Source: Xanthocytophaga agilis (GTDB taxonomy: Bacteria > Bacteroidota > Bacteroidia > Cytophagales > 172606-1). From it: a DNA stretch of 64,000 nucleotides. The stretch is from NCBI RefSeq assembly GCF_030068605.1, contig NZ_JASJOU010000001.1, forward strand, positions 806,001 through 870,000, written 5' to 3'. Below, in pieces: positions 6,447-17,233 of the stretch. The stretch's first letter is position 1. The number at the start of each line of letters is the position of its first letter. A model generated the notes under the pieces. That model was not told the DNA's origin. It did no database searches and saw only the letters and a program-made list of their open reading frames with translations. Both the position numbers and the translations under genes were made by a program.

Positions 6447-7004
6447 ATGAATACCATCTACAGAGTTTTGTTCATTACGTTGGGTTTATTGGTAATCCCA
6501 CAAATTATTCCCAAGCCTCAACGTAATAATATTGCACAGAGACTGGTAGGAGAGTGGAGGTATAAAAGTACTATGTGGGATGATTCTGAATTGCTTCTGC
6601 GAAAGAATGGTACATTTTGTTTTCATGAACGAACTTGTTTGTGGGAGCATTTTACTGAAGGAGTATGGAAAGTAGATAAAAGAAGGATTCTTTTAACAAG
6701 CTATGATACCTATAAACCTGTTAAGCAGATTGCTATATCAACTGAAACTTCTATTGACTCATCTTCATCAACAGGTAAGTATAAAAAAGGTAAGTTTAAA
6801 GCCTCTATCAATCTTGAAAAAATCTACACTTTTAAAATTACAGGTCCAGATTTCACATCAAACATCTATTTTAATAATATCGCATTAACCCTCAAGAACG
6901 ATACATTGTATTCTGATAATCAGGATATATCCTTGGGGAAGCGTACATTTAGTAGAATAAGGAAAGTGCCTGTATTTCCTATATTATCTTATGTGAAAGA
7001 GTGA
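6447..7004 (+). CDS. Hypothetical exported or membrane-anchored protein
   Basis: This is a 185-aa protein counted from ATG 6447; an in-frame TTG at 6408 would add 13 residues but falls at the predicted transcription start. An N-terminal hydrophobic segment (about 5-20) ends in PKPQ, suggesting a signal peptide or anchor. The rest resembles small lipocalin-like secreted proteins of Bacteroidota: it opens LVGEWRYKST and has NGTFCF and EGVWKVD. The two Cys residues at about 58 and 64 could pair. Function is unknown. Confidence 0.65.
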   Translation: MNTIYRVLFITLGLLVIPQIIPKPQRNNIAQRLVGEWRYKSTMWDDSELLLRKNGTFCFHERTCLWEHFTEGVWKVDKRRILLTSYDTYKPVKQIAISTETSIDSSSSTGKYKKGKFKASINLEKIYTFKITGPDFTSNIYFNNIALTLKNDTLYSDNQDISLGKRTFSRIRKVPVFPILSYVKE

Positions 7005-7043
7005 TATCTATTTTTCTTATCAGATATTCAATGTCTACGTACC

Positions 7044-7081
7044 TTCAATAAAGAACGATAGTAAGACTGTTCTTTATTGAA
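7044..7081. terminator. Bidirectional terminator between convergent genes
   Basis: A perfect 13-bp stem (7044-7056 with 7069-7081) and 12-nt loop lie between the stops of the genes ending at 7004 (+) and 7111 (-). Confidence 0.8.
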
Positions 7082-7110
7082 GTACATGTACATACTGTAG
7101 GACAATGTTA

Positions 7111-8391
7111 TTATGTATTCTGGCTAACCAGCAGCTTGTCAATCCGGTTTCCATCCATATCTACTACTTCCAGTTTATAGGTATGCCAGGTAAAGACTTC
7201 ACCTGTCTTAGGTATGCGACCTGCCAGATCAAGTATCAAACCTCCAACCGTATGAAATCCTGCTCTGTCTTCATCATCTACGTCATCTAGTTCAAAGTAA
7301 TGAATGAATTCATCTACTGGTAGGCGGGCGTCAACCAGACAGGACCCATCTTCTCTGGTAACAATCCATTTTTCTTCTTCACTGCCTCCTGCACCTTCTC
7401 CAACCATTGCCATAAACAGATCTTGTAAGGTTACCAATCCCTGAACCGTACCAAATTCATCTATCACCACAGCTGCTGGAACCTGTGCATCTTTTAACAA
7501 TTCCAGTATCCGAAAGGCATCCATGGATTCAGGAACAAATACAGGTTTAAGCATAACTTCTTCCAGACGGCTAAGCTTTTGCTGAATCAATGCATCCAGC
7601 AACTTTTTTGTACTTACCACTCCTTCTATCTGATCAATGTTTTCTCGTCCGATCAGGAAAACTTCCTGATCTGTTTCTGCTATGGTTTTGAGATTTGTCG
7701 CTAAGGAGTCTTCTATATCCAGCCAGATAAGGTCCAGTCGGCTGGTCATTACCGATCCCGCCTTCCGGTCTGAGAGATTAAAAACGCGTTCTACAATATC
7801 CTGTTCAATTTCCTCAAATATACCACTGCGGGTACCATGTCCAATCAGAGAGCGTATTTCGGCTTCAGTGACAGGTGCTTCTTCTGATGTCTTTACCTGA
7901 AATATAGTCAGAAGGAACTCTGTTGACTTACTTAATAACCAGACAAACGGTGCTGTAACTCTGGATAAGATGTCCATAGGACGTGCTACCAGCATGGCTA
8001 TTTTTTCGGGTGCATTCATCCCGATTCGCTTGGGAACCAGTTCACCTACTACCAGTGAGAGATAAGTGATTAACAATACCACAAGTGTTAACGCAATAGT
8101 TTGACTATATGGTGCTAGCAGAGGTATTTTAGCGAACGTAGGTGCTAACATCTCTGCCATACTGGCCCCTCCAAACACACCTGTTACAATACCGATGAGA
8201 GTAATACCTATCTGCACTGTAGATAAAAAGGTATTCGGTTCACCTGCAAGTTTCAATGCAATACGGGCACCACTATTACCTGATTTAGCTGCCTGTTCCA
8301 AACGGGTTTTTCTTGAAGAGACAATGGCAATCTCAGACATAGAAAAAATGCCATTGAGGATAATTAATAAAAGTATGATAAGGAGTTCCAT
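7111..8391 (-). CDS. HlyC/CorC family membrane protein (CNNM-CBS-CorC_HlyC)
   Basis: This 426-aa inner-membrane protein has a CNNM (DUF21) transmembrane domain with hydrophobic segments at about 1-20, 55-80, 95-120 and 130-150. It contains the family stretch STVQIGITLIGIVTGVFGG. A CBS-domain pair covers about 200-330 (GTVQGLVTLQDLF) and a CorC/HlyC C-terminal domain about 340-420. Family members are implicated in Mg2+/Co2+ efflux or resistance; the older hemolysin name is not functional evidence here. It is monocistronic, with a terminator at 7044-7081. Confidence 0.9.
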   Translation of the reverse strand: MELLIILLLIILNGIFSMSEIAIVSSRKTRLEQAAKSGNSGARIALKLAGEPNTFLSTVQIGITLIGIVTGVFGGASMAEMLAPTFAKIPLLAPYSQTIALTLVVLLITYLSLVVGELVPKRIGMNAPEKIAMLVARPMDILSRVTAPFVWLLSKSTEFLLTIFQVKTSEEAPVTEAEIRSLIGHGTRSGIFEEIEQDIVERVFNLSDRKAGSVMTSRLDLIWLDIEDSLATNLKTIAETDQEVFLIGRENIDQIEGVVSTKKLLDALIQQKLSRLEEVMLKPVFVPESMDAFRILELLKDAQVPAAVVIDEFGTVQGLVTLQDLFMAMVGEGAGGSEEEKWIVTREDGSCLVDARLPVDEFIHYFELDDVDDEDRAGFHTVGGLILDLAGRIPKTGEVFTWHTYKLEVVDMDGNRIDKLLVSQNT

Positions 8392-11761: not shown

Positions 11762-12169
11762 GAATCATTGGATAGGTAGGGCAAATATATAATTTACATA
11801 CTACATATTTCTTTACTTCTCTTGAATTCCATGGTATAACCTGATTCTTCTTCTATACTGTTGACTTGAAACAAGAGCCGCAGATAAAATTCTTCCTATA
11901 CTTAGCTTCCTGATGACAATCCTCTATCAATAAGTGTAACTCATGCATTGAGAAGGGTATCCTCTTACATAACACTTTGGTAACATCTTCATTACAATTT
12001 GATATTACAAAGCAACATGCTGATTATTAGTTGTTTGTGTTAATTTGTAGCCTCTTTGTTGCTTTCTGTAATGTCTCTTGTTGCTTTTTTGTTTACGCTC
12101 TACGTGCTGGTTTGGTGAGGCATTGCTGCACTTTTGCAGAGTAATCATTTGTGGCAAACTACCCAAAGT
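11762..12169. other. Gene-free stretch upstream of the phytate locus
   Basis: About 400 AT-rich bases separate the divergent lipoprotein and TonB receptor genes and must hold both promoters. Near-matches to TAnnTTTG occur at 12036-12043 and 12129-12136 (7 of 8 each), neither convincing. No ORF or repeat is seen. Confidence 0.5.
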
Positions 12170-14899
12170 ATGAAAAAAAAATGTACATTCTTTATCCTTC
12201 TGTGGCTGTGTTGGTACGTAGGCGCAGCACAGGGAATTATCAAAGGTAAAGTAATAGATGACCAGAATAATCAGCCATTACCTGGAGCTAGTATCACTGT
12301 GGATGGAACCAATGCCGGTGCTTCAGCTAACCTGTCAGGCGAGTTTGAACTGAACGTATTTACTTCTGGTAAAGTTGACTTGAAAATATCTTATCTGGGG
12401 TATAAGCCTTCTATGGTTTCTGTTGAAGTTGTTTCGGGCAAAGTAACTACTGTCACTATTCCTCTTCGAAATGAGAGTTTTGAAATTCTTGGTGTGACCA
12501 TTACAGGTCAGTTGCAAGGTCAGGCACGTGCCCTGAATCAGCAACGTACTGCAGATAATATTAAAAATGTGGTATCAGCTGATCAGATCGGACGATTTCC
12601 CGACCCTAACGCTGCCGAAGCATTACAACGAGTACCCGGTGTAAATATTGAGCGTGATCAGGGAGAAGGTCGTTATGTGTTGGTACGGGGATTATCGCCA
12701 CAGTTTACCAATATCAGTGTAAACGGAGAGCAAATCCCTTCGCCAGAAGCCGGTGTACGATATGTGGCACTAGACGCGATTCCTTCTGACCAGCTATCAT
12801 CACTGGAAGTCTCCAAGTCATTAACTCCGGATATGGACGGAGATGCCATTGGAGGATCTGTCAATCTGATAACTCGTACGGCCCAGAGTGGAATCACAAC
12901 ACTGAATGGTACACTGGCAGGTGGCTATAATAATCTGATGAAACGTGGCAACTGGCAGGGTTCCTTACAATATGGGCAACGATTAGGCAAAGAGGAAAAG
13001 CTGGGTGTGATGCTCAATATAAGCCATTATACCAACAATCTGGGGTCTGACAACTGGGAACGAGATACCCGTGATAATGTAGCTGAGCCGGAAGAGCATC
13101 GATTAGAATTACGGGATTATGAACTTACCCGTACCCGCTTTGGTTCCAGTGCTACTATTGACTACAAATTCAATCCAAACCATCAGGTATATGTACGTGG
13201 GCTATACAGCCGGTTTACAGACCGTGAATGGCGTCGCCGCTATGTATTTCTGCCAGCAGATGATGAGGTTGAACATATTACCAAAGATCGGTTTGAAGCC
13301 CAGTCCGTGACCAGTATCAATGTTGGCGCCAACCATTTATTTGGAAAGTTTACACTGGATTATGAAGGATCATATTCCTATGCTACACAGGATACTCCTT
13401 TTGACAATGAAGCAGGTTTTATTGCCAGCGATGTTGCCTCTGACATTACTTTCCAGACAGATTACCCTAGATTGTCTTCAGCCCATTACCTGGACAATAC
13501 ACTGTATTCATTTGACAGCTTCGAGACTGGACACACTTTTGCGAAAGACCGGAATATTACCGGAAAGTTCAATCTCGGAATTCCATATCAGTGGGGAGGC
13601 AATGGGGGTTTGATCAAGGTAGGTGGTAAAGTGCGATTTAAAGAGAAGAGTTATGCCATCACACAAAATAAATACGAAGCATTGAGTGATATTCCGGATC
13701 TGTCTTTCTTTGAAGGTGGTTTGTTGGATAAAAACTTTATAGGCAACCGATATCAGTTAAGCCCTAGCGTATCTATTCCTTCTTTTATTCGATACTTTAA
13801 CGCTAATCCACAGAATTTTGAATTGCAGATTGAAGATAAAGCCGCTGATGAAGCACTGGAAAGCTATACTGCAACTGAAGATGTCTATGCTGGATATGCA
13901 ATGGCTCGCCAGCAGTTTCGTAAGTTAATGGTGCTGGGTGGAGTTCGGTATGAACGTACGAATGTAAGCTATCAATCCAGCGATGTTGTATTTGCTCCCA
14001 ATGGTGATTTGCAACAAATACTTCCTGTAAGTGGAAAGAGTAATTATGAGTTCTTTTTACCTCAATTACATTTTAAATACAGTGCTAACGAACTGACAAA
14101 TATCCGCTTAGCGGGAACATTTTCTTATGCTCGTCCTAACTTTGACCAGATCATTCCTGCTCAGGAAGCTAGTCTGGAAGACCTGATTGCAACAGTAGGT
14201 AATGCCGTTTTACAACCTGTCAAGGCATTTAACCTTGACCTCTTAGCTGAACGATACCTGGGTACTATCGGTATTATTTCTGGTGGATTCTTCTACAAAA
14301 AGCTGGATAACTTTATCTATACCCGTCGGTTTACCGGAAGCTATCCGCTCAATTCAGCTACACCAATAGCTACGGATCTATTGATTACTCAGGTACAAAA
14401 CGGTAAGACAGCAGATTTGTTGGGTGTAGAATTGGCTTATCAGCAAAATCTGAATTTCTTATCAGGTGCTTTGTCTGGTTTGGGTGTCTATCTGAACTAT
14501 ACCTATACTCATTCTTCTGCTATTGTACAGCGCAATGAGGCTCCGGAAACTGAAATGCTGAATCTGCCCGGACAGGCTGCCCATGTAGGGAATGTATCTC
14601 TGTCCTATCAATACAAGGGATTCAGTGCCCGTGCTTCCCTGAATTTCAATGGTCGCTACCTGTCTGCTACCGGAGCTACCCCCGCAGACGATATCTACGT
14701 GAAAGACCGCATGCAACTGGATGTGACACTTGGATATACTATTACGAAGCAATGGAGAGTCTTTGCAGAATTCATGAACCTGACCAATCAACCGTTTGAG
14801 ACCTATGCAGGTACTCGTAATTTCACTACCCAACGTGAATTTTATGGATGGTGGACCCGCTTTGGAATCAAATTTAACATACTGGATAAAACAAAGTAA
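12170..14899 (+). CDS. TonB-dependent receptor of the phytase locus
   Basis: This is a 909-aa outer-membrane receptor from ATG 12170; an in-frame TTG at 12134 only adds residues before the signal peptide. A signal peptide (about 1-21) is followed by a carboxypeptidase-regulatory-like domain (IIKGKVIDDQNNQPLPGASI). The plug reads GRFPDPNAAEALQRVPGVNI and RYVLVRGLSPQFTNISVNG, then a 22-strand barrel ends in aromatic residues (FGIKF). The plug resembles the TonB-Xanth-Caul subfamily. It heads a three-gene locus with an acidic lipoprotein and a beta-propeller phytase, so it probably imports phytate or its breakdown products across the outer membrane. That substrate is inferred from context. Confidence 0.9.
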   Translation: MKKKCTFFILLWLCWYVGAAQGIIKGKVIDDQNNQPLPGASITVDGTNAGASANLSGEFELNVFTSGKVDLKISYLGYKPSMVSVEVVSGKVTTVTIPLRNESFEILGVTITGQLQGQARALNQQRTADNIKNVVSADQIGRFPDPNAAEALQRVPGVNIERDQGEGRYVLVRGLSPQFTNISVNGEQIPSPEAGVRYVALDAIPSDQLSSLEVSKSLTPDMDGDAIGGSVNLITRTAQSGITTLNGTLAGGYNNLMKRGNWQGSLQYGQRLGKEEKLGVMLNISHYTNNLGSDNWERDTRDNVAEPEEHRLELRDYELTRTRFGSSATIDYKFNPNHQVYVRGLYSRFTDREWRRRYVFLPADDEVEHITKDRFEAQSVTSINVGANHLFGKFTLDYEGSYSYATQDTPFDNEAGFIASDVASDITFQTDYPRLSSAHYLDNTLYSFDSFETGHTFAKDRNITGKFNLGIPYQWGGNGGLIKVGGKVRFKEKSYAITQNKYEALSDIPDLSFFEGGLLDKNFIGNRYQLSPSVSIPSFIRYFNANPQNFELQIEDKAADEALESYTATEDVYAGYAMARQQFRKLMVLGGVRYERTNVSYQSSDVVFAPNGDLQQILPVSGKSNYEFFLPQLHFKYSANELTNIRLAGTFSYARPNFDQIIPAQEASLEDLIATVGNAVLQPVKAFNLDLLAERYLGTIGIISGGFFYKKLDNFIYTRRFTGSYPLNSATPIATDLLITQVQNGKTADLLGVELAYQQNLNFLSGALSGLGVYLNYTYTHSSAIVQRNEAPETEMLNLPGQAAHVGNVSLSYQYKGFSARASLNFNGRYLSATGATPADDIYVKDRMQLDVTLGYTITKQWRVFAEFMNLTNQPFETYAGTRNFTTQREFYGWWTRFGIKFNILDKTK

Positions 14900-14907
14900 T
14901 CCATTGA

Positions 14908-14954
14908 TGCAGCATTGCCAGTTTGAGTGGTATCCATAAACTGACGATGCTGCA
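14908..14954 (+). promoter_or_regulatory. Imperfect hairpin between receptor and lipoprotein genes
   Basis: Outer arms of 8 bp (14908-14915 with 14947-14954) and inner arms of 6 bp (14919-14924 with 14938-14943) can fold into one hairpin. It has no T-run. It lies in the 92-base gap inside the presumed operon, where it could lower downstream expression or protect the receptor mRNA 3' end. Confidence 0.45.
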
Positions 14955-14991
14955 GACAATAGCCTATCCATAACTATAAACTGACAACTTT

Positions 14992-16038
14992 ATGAATAAA
15001 TATACCCGAGTAGGGTTGGCATTGCTAACCTGCGGGCTGTTGGCTGCCTGTGATAAACGCCACGACGATGTAGTAGAACCGATTTCACTGGAAAAATTTC
15101 CGAAACAAATTGTACTCAGTGATGAGGGCGATGGGGATATAGAAGACGAAGATAAAGTAAGCATTGGTATTGAACTGCTTAAGCAATATGACCCATCCGG
15201 TGAAGAGCTGGGAGGGATTGTGAACCCACTAAAAGAGGCAGTTACTGTGTCGTTTGAAATCAAAGATCTGGAAGGATTTAGTAAGCTGTCGGATTATGTG
15301 AAAGTAGGGAGGGCCTTCTATGAAATAGATGACTGTACAACTTCTGAAGATGAGTCTATAGATTTGAATTTTTCACTAGACCTGGCTACTGGTAAAGGTT
15401 CCGTTGTGTTTCCAGCCGGTGTAGAAAGTATTGAAATCGAACTGGAAACGGATGAAGACTTTTTTGATGACAAGACCCTCAACACAGAAAAACGTGGCTT
15501 TACTTTCGCATTGGCCGGAATAAGTGCTTCTACTGAAAATGTGGTTGTGAATACAGTCAATGAGTTTGCCTACCTGGTATTGGATGATGAAGCTGTTTTT
15601 GGTGAATGGGAAGTTGATGCCAGTGATGCCACTGAGTTTGCAGCCTTCAAAAACCTGTTTGGGTCATTTGATGAGTCCATCGCTAATCTGGAAAGCACAG
15701 ATGTAGACAAGATTGAAATCGAAGTCGGATACGAAGGTTTTCAACTGAAAATAACCCTGAACGAAACCGAACCCGATGAGTGTGATGCATCTGAACTGGT
15801 TAACAAAGAAATTGAACTGGAAGGGGAGTATGGTGGAGATATAGAAGATCTATTTGCGACATTAAACGGTTCGCTGGAATTTTCAGAAGAAATTGAGCAG
15901 GAAGATGGAAAGGTTGTGGAGTTTACACTGGAAGGTGAATATGTCATTGATCCGGTAGATACTGAAAAATTAATACTGACGTTGAAGGGAGAGTATCTGG
16001 ATGACATTCCTGAAACCATACTTCATCTGAAAAAATGA
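14992..16038 (+). CDS. Acidic lipoprotein with Calx-beta-like domain, phytase locus
   Basis: This 348-aa lipoprotein has the lipobox LLAAC (C20). The residues right after the Cys (DKRHDD) are charged and acidic, as in Bacteroidota surface-lipoprotein export signals. A segment with AVTVSFEI, GKGSVVFPAGVESIEIELET and then DEDFFDD with GFTFALAGIS matches the Calx-beta pattern, a Ca2+-binding beta-sandwich. The C-terminal half is a very acidic beta-rich region of D/E-rich repeats. Beta-propeller phytases need Ca2+ and act on Ca-phytate, so a surface Ca/phytate-binding role is plausible but inferred. Confidence 0.75.
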   Translation: MNKYTRVGLALLTCGLLAACDKRHDDVVEPISLEKFPKQIVLSDEGDGDIEDEDKVSIGIELLKQYDPSGEELGGIVNPLKEAVTVSFEIKDLEGFSKLSDYVKVGRAFYEIDDCTTSEDESIDLNFSLDLATGKGSVVFPAGVESIEIELETDEDFFDDKTLNTEKRGFTFALAGISASTENVVVNTVNEFAYLVLDDEAVFGEWEVDASDATEFAAFKNLFGSFDESIANLESTDVDKIEIEVGYEGFQLKITLNETEPDECDASELVNKEIELEGEYGGDIEDLFATLNGSLEFSEEIEQEDGKVVEFTLEGEYVIDPVDTEKLILTLKGEYLDDIPETILHLKK

Positions 16039-16099
16039 TTCCCTGTATTTTTGATCGAAATTAGTTAAGTCATTTGTTTTTGATACTAGATAATAATCC

Positions 16100-17233
16100 A
16101 TGAAATATATTTTCTTACCTGTAGTGCTGTTGTGTATGGCTTGCGGGTCCAACTCAAACCAAACCACAACATCTACCCAACCATCTGCAGATACTATACA
16201 TACCTTTAGTCCAGTGTATGATACTGCAACAGTGATTCAGCCTGTTTATACTACTGATACTACTCTATATGATACAGACGATCCTGCCATTTGGATCAAT
16301 CCAGCTAATGCCAGTGAGAGTTTGGTATTGGGGACTGACAAGAATGAAAACGGAGCGTTATATGTCTATAACCTGAAAGGAAAAATCATCGCTGATAAGG
16401 TAGTAAAAGGCTTGAAACGCCCTAATAATGTGGATATAGAATATGGTGTGATGATAGGGGGGAAGCTCACAGACATTGCTGTGGTGACCGAACGCCTTAC
16501 CCATAAACTACGTGTGTATAGCTTACCATCCATGCAGACTGTAGATGGAGGTGGCTTACCTGTTTTTGAAGGAGAACCAGCTGATAACGAATTTCGGGAT
16601 CTGATGGGAATTTCCTTGTACAAGAATCCTGCTAATGGAAAAATATATGCTATTGTTGGCCGGAAAACAGGCCCATCTAAAGAATACCTGTGGCAGTATC
16701 TGCTGGAAGATAATGGAAAAGGTCAGCTAAAAGCTACTCTGGTGCGTAAGTTTGGTACCTACAGTGGAGCTAAAGAAATTGAGTCTATTGCTGTAGATGA
16801 TGCGTTGGGATATGTATACTATTCAGACGAAACTGTAGGTGTACGCAAGTATTATGCAGACCCGGATAAAGGAAATGACGAACTGGCTTTGTTTGCTACA
16901 ACGGGTTTTAGTGGTGATCATGAAGGTATTTCTATTTATGCGGTAGATGATAAAACAGGCTATATACTGGTGTCAGACCAGCAGGCTGATAAGTTTCATA
17001 TCTTTACTCGTGAAGGCTCCAGCAAGAATCCACATCGGCACCAGTTGCTGAAAGTAGTAAAAGTAGCTTCTCATGAGAGTGATGGCTCGGACATAACTGC
17101 ATTGCCACTGGGTCCGGACTTCCCACATGGCTTGTTTATAGCCATGTCTGACAACCGAACCTTTGGATTATATTCCTGGGATTCCATTGCAGGTAAGGAT
17201 TTAAAAAAAGCTGAATCCGTTAAACATCCATAG
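16100..17233 (+). CDS. Beta-propeller phytase (3-phytase), lipoprotein
   Basis: This 377-aa protein has the lipobox LCMAC (C15) and a Thr/Ser-rich linker. Its propeller begins DTDDPAIWINP, followed by LVLGTDKNENGALYVYNLKG, KGLKRPNNVDIEYG and KEIESIAVDDALGYVYYSDE. It also has the GFSGDHEGISIY and SDGSDITALPLGPDFPHGLF blocks. These are hallmark segments of BPP phytases, which use acidic residues to bind Ca2+ and release phosphate from myo-inositol hexakisphosphate. It is the last gene of the receptor/lipoprotein/phytase locus and probably acts at the cell surface or in the periplasm. Confidence 0.93.
   Translation: MKYIFLPVVLLCMACGSNSNQTTTSTQPSADTIHTFSPVYDTATVIQPVYTTDTTLYDTDDPAIWINPANASESLVLGTDKNENGALYVYNLKGKIIADKVVKGLKRPNNVDIEYGVMIGGKLTDIAVVTERLTHKLRVYSLPSMQTVDGGGLPVFEGEPADNEFRDLMGISLYKNPANGKIYAIVGRKTGPSKEYLWQYLLEDNGKGQLKATLVRKFGTYSGAKEIESIAVDDALGYVYYSDETVGVRKYYADPDKGNDELALFATTGFSGDHEGISIYAVDDKTGYILVSDQQADKFHIFTREGSSKNPHRHQLLKVVKVASHESDGSDITALPLGPDFPHGLFIAMSDNRTFGLYSWDSIAGKDLKKAESVKHP

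Follow-up and report, generated by a model that had tools for sequence, protein, structure and literature searches.

A conserved acidic lipoprotein, probable surface partner of a phytate receptor, in phytase operons of Bacteroidota

A 64,000-nucleotide stretch of the Xanthocytophaga agilis genome (the window; contig NZ_JASJOU010000001.1, positions 806,001 to 870,000 of the forward strand) contains a compact operon at window positions 12170-17233. Its three open reading frames lie on one strand and encode a TonB-dependent receptor (TBDR), an acidic lipoprotein designated LIPO and a beta-propeller phytase, in that order. LIPO represents a real and apparently undescribed lipoprotein family within the known class of TBDRs that work with a surface lipoprotein, and probably acts at the surface as the partner of a phytate TBDR. 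The overall interpretation that LIPO captures phytate, the TBDR imports it and the phytase hydrolyzes it in the periplasm is assigned a probability of about 0.6. It is built on the gene order, a one-way linkage of LIPO to phytase, the grouping of the receptors, fold predictions, an N-terminal contrast between the two lipoproteins and an upstream repeat motif.

The operon and its receptor group

The TBDR (12170-14899, + strand; 909 residues) was assigned from its open reading frame, profile matches and place in a TBDR tree. It starts with the ATG at 12170; a TTG upstream of this, at 12134, falls in the open frame as well. The protein scores 502 bits against the NCBIfam profile TIGR01782 (cut-off 310) and contains the Pfam domains CarbopepD_reg_2 and Plug (the latter at 7.9e-16). 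LIPO (14992-16038, + strand; 348 residues) follows after a gap of 92 bp and was assigned from its open reading frame, its composition and its relatives beside phytase genes; the lipobox LAAC20 provides a lipid anchor at C20 and the predicted mature protein opens with the surface-export-like sequence CDKRHDD. The phytase (16100-17233, + strand; 377 residues) begins 61 bp further on and is also a lipoprotein (lipobox MAC15), here with an N-terminus that is not acidic and surface-export-like. It matches PF02333 with 146 bits (cut-off 21, E = 1.6e-42), is the sole PF02333 match found across the 9.77-Mb genome and aligns with the solved phytase 1cvm at a phmmer E-value of 5.8e-35. Calcium and substrate residues were placed through this alignment using 1cvm residue numbers. 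Eleven of the 17 positions are kept (D55, D56, K76, N99, R122, K179, E211, E227, D258, E260 and D314), two are changed (K77 to N and Y159 to M) and D308 falls in a gap; at the remaining three (101, 180 and 229) the template letter differs from the expected one, and the numbering is thus not fully reliable. An earlier note on this DNA, made from its sequence and open reading frames, had read the segment as a phytate-use locus, and the PF02333 phytase beside a TIGR01782-type TBDR, both located where the note had put them, supports that reading. TBDR-phytase pairing is itself already in print, in Citromicrobium (PMC3400609) and in PMC8115612, as far as the available parts of these papers go. The literature surveyed, mainly outside subscription journals, holds no apparent account of phytase loci that contain a Calx-beta lipoprotein.

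A species-wide scan, covering 84,980 species by one genome each and able to reach only close relatives, returned 21 LIPO relatives, by their titles all from Bacteroidota except L046, which lies in a metagenome-assembled genome labelled Thalassovita, a label that is probably wrong. A TBDR of the same kind is directly upstream on the same strand in all 21. Phytase is downstream in 20, and the contig of the 21st stops inside LIPO. The receptors are 53-60% identical to the TBDR here, apart from that of X. flavus at 98%; the X. flavus LIPO is 96% identical. With longest-frame starts, neighboring genes in LIPO loci commonly sit within a few bases of each other or share 1-4 bases. Such an overlap links LIPO and phytase in 7/20 loci (two of them, L050 and L051, near copies), and L045 has about 1.07 kb between the two genes. 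The recurrence of the operon in other genera shows that the arrangement is not due to chance.

Searching 390 genomes of the order with the LIPO profile gave 12 matches, 11 of them clear, including that from X. agilis itself. Nine of the other clear matches lie in TBDR-LIPO-phytase loci, two of which (L115 and L117) have one extra gene before the phytase, and the contig of the tenth (L111) stops shortly beyond LIPO. L110 and L109 of this sample apparently correspond to contigs L032 and L046 of the species-wide scan. The remaining match, L118, is weak and lies in a SusC-SusD locus with no adjoining phytase. Phytase occurs in 107 of the 390 genomes and in 10 of the 11 with a clear LIPO, the 11th being the one cut by the contig end (hypergeometric P of about 1.5e-5, relatedness ignored). 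The phylum sample of 395 genomes has phytase in 51 and a LIPO match solely in X. agilis; up to five candidates were scored per genome in this search, so divergent copies could be missed. Direct profile scanning of 44 phytase loci from 43 of the phylum-sample genomes found no LIPO. Universal co-conservation of LIPO with phytase is rejected because most phytase loci in both samples are without LIPO. Co-conservation with phytase, whose absence the earlier note named as refuting its idea, holds in one direction: every clear, uncut LIPO locus has a phytase within its gene run (20/20 and 9/9, two loci probably being common to both sets). The reverse, that phytase loci carry LIPO, fails. The description of LIPO as a third, conserved partner is supported. 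LIPO has no paralogue in its own genome at E<=1, and tblastn found no match to it on plasmids.

The 44 phylum-sample loci were sorted by what stands between receptor and phytase. The TBDR runs straight to the phytase in 32 (the direct type), a beta-helix lipoprotein intervenes in 6, a metallophosphatase in 2, and 4 have no TBDR, meaning none in the same-strand run of the phytase. Sixty further loci of the order, hand-chosen with LIPO genomes left out, comprise 23 direct, 16 beta-helix, 20 with no TBDR in the run and 1 other, so the slot is filled in at least three ways. On a FastTree tree of 107 TBDRs with long branches flagged, a single branch (support 99) separates all 30 LIPO-linked receptors from the rest. 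Taken together, the three locus types can be explained on this tree by three changes, against a mean of 43.7 when shuffled; two changes explain the beta-helix type by itself, and three the direct type. Direct-type TBDRs are mostly 31-37% identical to the receptor here, the exceptions being L105 and L173 (26-27%) and L158 (51%). The locus type goes with the receptor group and the lipoprotein tracks the receptor, a pattern that would be expected of a physical partner.

The beta-helix lipoproteins are unrelated to LIPO and occupy the slot in 22 of the 113 classified loci, nine of which had been chosen for LIPO. Examples are at L075 8075-9346, L077 5656-6921, L086 8011-9276, L092 5113-6705 and L093 5691-6959. 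They share with LIPO their place between TBDR and phytase and an acidic export-like N-terminus (15/21) and differ in their right-handed beta-helix fold (a weak PF13229 match in L075), near-neutral charge and receptors located elsewhere on the tree. They are possibly kin of the phosphate-induced FI/FII lipoproteins of Flavobacterium johnsoniae. Metallophosphatase genes lie within or just after phytase loci at L085 5865-6887, L117 7980-8933, L100 4851-6917 and L112 9183-10103. Proteins of about 295 residues with a WTHNDS motif are encoded near phytase loci at L115 7994-8881 and L116 3096-3992 and have no Pfam match at E<=0.01.

Predicted fold and charge of LIPO

Searches of LIPO against Pfam and NCBIfam gave no match at E<=1, and neither LIPO nor its profile finds anything convincing among the sequences of solved structures at E up to 10. 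The AlphaFold model of the full protein (20 sequences; m95d6eeb41a47) has a pLDDT of 78.8 and consists mostly of strands with a few short helices. Residues 36-199 (15097-15588, + strand), which include the conserved block AFYEIDDCTTSED, are predicted to form a Calx-beta-fold domain. The model of this domain was compared with known structures by VIA-align, which re-scores the Foldseek list and was run on predicted models. It aligns with CBD1, the domain that serves as primary Ca2+ sensor in the sodium-calcium exchanger NCX1 (2dpk), at Z = 10.4 and rmsd 2.9 over 121 residues with 18% identity. The top match is the same NCX domain in 9iv8 (Z = 10.5), and the best 15 matches are all Calx-beta entries from NCX, CALX or integrin beta4. 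Foldseek with the full model gave mixed low-TM matches, with 3n91 (Bacteroides ovatus, unknown function) first and the NCX domain 2qvk fourth. hhalign of LIPO with three Calx-beta sequences reached a probability of 90 over residues 132-200, one of the three (L118) having come from the LIPO profile, and was weak with CBD1 alone (probability 2.6). The Calx-beta-like segment described earlier is therefore borne out at the level of predicted fold (Z = 10.4 to 2dpk), while Pfam PF03160 (Calx-beta) has no match at E<=1 in LIPO or the 20 aligned members.

The remainder of the protein, residues 200-348 (15589-16035, + strand), is weakly calycin-like in its predicted beta-barrel, at the edge of significance. 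A separate model of residues 198-348 (m1e27d5474abe) has a pLDDT of 80.5. Its best 50 VIA-align matches span Z = 6.7-8.6; the top two are designed barrels and most of the others are avidin-, lipocalin- or FABP-like. Common arrangements reach similar scores, and for this reason only a fold class is claimed. Foldseek returned no match to this domain at E<=0.001, and one of the 20 aligned members weakly matches Lipocalin_4 (E = 0.048). Two cysteines, C115 (15334-15336, + strand) and C264 (15781-15783, + strand), are proposed as disulfide partners from their co-occurrence. Both are present in 27/28 LIPO sequences and both are gone in L116; their being kept or lost together suggests a disulfide that joins the two domains.

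The composition of LIPO is 25.0% Asp plus Glu versus 7.5% Lys plus Arg, with a pI of 4.05. Net charge per 100 residues is -17.5 here and -15.4 to -28.2 in nine other LIPO proteins, compared with -1.9 to +1.7 in the beta-helix lipoproteins (n = 26), -3.0 in the phytases and -1.6 when averaged over the longest open reading frames of 30 SusD loci. The acidity had been ascribed to the C-terminal half; instead the whole of LIPO is acidic, with 47 of the 88 Asp and Glu residues in the second half of the 96% identical orthologue at L032. E51, D52, D113, D114, D198 and D199 are invariant in the 20 aligned members and E200 is nearly so.

The calcium ligands of CBD1 are E385, D446-E454 and D498-D500. 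At its two ends the structural alignment pairs CBD1 370 with residue 36 of LIPO and CBD1 498 with D198. Calcium binding by the main LIPO group is likely, and binding of Ca2+ or Ca-phytate is plausible. Phytate is a polyanion and LIPO is strongly negative, so a receptor would by this reasoning need metal to hold phytate, most simply a metal that is bound by LIPO or bridges the two.

LIPO could instead serve the TBDR structurally or as a kind of lid, without binding Ca2+ or phytate for capture, its acids stabilizing the fold or repelling other polyanions. A lid would fit the tight linkage to one TBDR group. Integrin beta4 is among the structural matches (Z = 9.6), its Calx-beta domain is not known to depend on calcium, and Calx-beta domains need not bind calcium. 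The loop at residues 154-160 is also poorly kept in L112-L117. The conserved extreme acidity of LIPO (-15.4 to -28.2 per 100 residues), however, seems beyond what a neutral lid would need, and this alternative is judged unlikely.

The partner had also been called SusD-type, a wording that finds no support. The SusD fold is mostly helical and TPR-like, LIPO has a predicted beta fold, and the SusD families (PF07980, PF14322 and kin) have no match at E<=1 in LIPO or the 20 aligned members; SusD homology is rejected on these grounds. SusC/SusD importers and the phosphate-induced PusCD systems of Bacteroidetes resemble the present operon in combining a TBDR and a lipoprotein. The TBDR here is far below the cut-off of the SusC/RagA model TIGR04056 (72.1 bits against 368.25), and LIPO differs from SusD in family and in its nearly all-beta prediction. 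Complexes of the BtuB-BtuG type resemble the TBDR-LIPO pair in that the TBDR has its own surface lipoprotein, one that is not SusD, according to the available part of PMC10404256. They serve another ligand and have another lipoprotein fold. BtuG is a beta-propeller.

At L118 6665-8993, a SusD gene is followed by a Calx-beta lipoprotein gene that weakly matches the LIPO profile (E = 8.5e-4). This lipoprotein (6665-7549) is encoded by the third gene of a SusCD locus near a TBDR and matches PF03160 at 3.7e-4, below the cut-off. It differs from LIPO in following SusD, in having no adjoining phytase and in its charge (-9.5 versus -17.5 per 100 residues). Lipoproteins of this kind are a possible origin of LIPO.

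Predicted location of LIPO and phytase

Acidic residues immediately after the lipidated cysteine send Bacteroidetes lipoproteins to the surface, a rule demonstrated in Capnocytophaga with signals from Bacteroides and Flavobacterium (PMC5080379, in the part of the paper available). At least two acids occur at positions +2 to +8 in 26/28 LIPO proteins after correction of two lipobox positions (24/28 before). Phytases reach this number in 3/26 LIPO loci, 9/48 direct loci, 0/14 beta-helix loci and 1/17 other loci. The difference between LIPO and the phytases of LIPO loci has a Fisher P of about 1e-9, calculated from the corrected numbers with near copies kept in. SusD proteins of the same genome, which are expected at the surface, have the acidic N-terminus in 20/27 cases (27 read among 30 fetched of 50 matches). 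The surface location assigned to LIPO in the earlier note thus has a basis in its acidic N-terminal signal. Presence of the signal in LIPO and its absence from most phytases would place LIPO outside and the phytase on the periplasmic side, with import before hydrolysis. This arrangement, read from N-terminal sequences, departs from the earlier picture. The F. johnsoniae TBDR and phytase are listed only as predicted outer membrane proteins in the available part of PMC8115612.

On the reading taken from the earlier note, LIPO would supply or concentrate Ca2+ for a phytase working at the surface. Beta-propeller phytases need Ca2+, and the acidity and Calx-beta fold of LIPO would suit such a role. 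Most phytases, however, do not share the acidic export-like signal of LIPO, which weakens the idea; most phytases also have no LIPO, and LIPO follows the TBDR group. We consider it improbable that LIPO serves the calcium need of the phytase in this manner.

Phosphate control, proposed mechanism and significance

A candidate regulatory site of three TAACA-like repeats with an 11-bp period (TAACACTTTGGTAACATCTTCATTACA) lies at 11970-11996 (+ strand), ending 173 bp ahead of the TBDR ATG. The exact pattern TAACA-N6-TAACA-N6-TWACA occurs once in the 9.77-Mb genome, and its reversed control does not occur. A relaxed triple with the 6-bp spacer is upstream of 23/106 phytase-locus TBDRs, distributed as 11/29 LIPO, 11/21 beta-helix and 1/56 direct loci, two of the 56 having a metallophosphatase gene between receptor and phytase. 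The 35 overlapping upstream hits amount to 0.975 per kb versus 0.005 per kb elsewhere in the same loci. No relaxed triple was found upstream of phytase-locus TBDRs at spacers of 4, 5, 7 or 8 or on the reverse strand. The repeat was spotted by eye and the pattern widened once after the first matches, so the enrichment is partly fitted, and the loci are related. Repeats with the 11-bp period also precede the TBDRs of L033, L034, L172, L188 and others, including loci with unrelated middle genes. We take the 11-bp geometry to be that of PhoB (Pho) boxes, which hints that the repeat is a candidate Bacteroidota Pho box with PhoB as its putative binder; the literature surveyed has no apparent account of this repeat in that role. 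The F. johnsoniae locus Fjoh_1368/Fjoh_1367 likewise has a TBDR beside a PF02333 phytase, both induced on phosphate depletion, and differs in that no middle lipoprotein is named for it in the available part of PMC8115612.

An ECF sigma factor and FecR, identified with Pfam, lie directly before the phytase-locus TBDR at L112 2179-3794 and L158 355-2058, which suggests substrate-triggered signaling. This arrangement is best known from ferric-siderophore uptake, and the system might accordingly serve mainly to gather phytate-bound metal such as iron or calcium, with phosphate release secondary. The metallophosphatase genes at L085, L100, L117 and L112 point to phosphorus instead, as does the 11-bp repeat with its Pho-box-like geometry, and a FecR-like gene is also part of a phosphate-induced F. 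johnsoniae locus (PMC8115612); metal gathering as the main purpose is judged as improbable as calcium supply.

In the favored mechanism, LIPO would be made in one operon with a phytate-specific TBDR and a lipid-anchored beta-propeller phytase, and the operon would likely be switched on by phosphate starvation. LIPO, exposed to the outside on the outer membrane and perhaps in complex with the TBDR, would capture phytate, probably as the calcium salt, and its Calx-beta domain would most likely hold Ca2+ in acidic loops. The TBDR would import the captured phytate, and the phytase, anchored facing the periplasm, would free phosphate after import.

Several observations weigh against this mechanism. 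Most phytase loci manage without LIPO, which is thus not essential to phytate use. Shared descent of the operon also yields a lipoprotein that tracks its receptor, and the L158 TBDR, of the same family as that of X. agilis (51% identity) and with LIPO-linked receptors as its nearest rows on the tree, runs straight to phytase without LIPO. The export rule comes from other families of Bacteroidetes, as far as the available part of PMC5080379 goes, and 9/48 direct-locus phytases do carry at least two acids. The divergent group L112-L117 keeps neither position 51 nor the acidic loop 154-160, which means that not every LIPO protein would have a fixed calcium site of the CBD1 type. The repeat is nearly absent from direct loci (1/56), and the X. 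agilis genome has no overall excess of it (48 doubles versus 52 in the control; 12 relaxed triples versus 15). Downstream of the 12 triple sites are the TBDR of the operon and one other TBDR-like protein start (L252), and nothing recognizable as phosphate metabolism. Two PBP_like_2 loci, whose open reading frames are not recognizable as pst genes, do not have the repeat.

A further and more tentative proposal is that LIPO is the first member of a new family of phytate receptors that depend on calcium. In such a receptor a Ca2+-loaded Calx-beta domain, linked through a disulfide with the calycin-like barrel, would hold phytate or calcium-phytate at the surface and pass it to the TBDR, and whole phytate would be taken up before it is cut. 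Phytate is a major phosphorus store of plants and a large, poorly available store of phosphorus in soil, and to our knowledge the route by which it crosses the outer membrane of Gram-negative bacteria is unsettled. Because a dedicated lipoprotein is tied to one receptor group, and loci with no middle gene or with a beta-helix lipoprotein offer natural controls, the choice between importing first and cutting first is directly testable, and the LIPO profile is a means of finding likely phytate importers.

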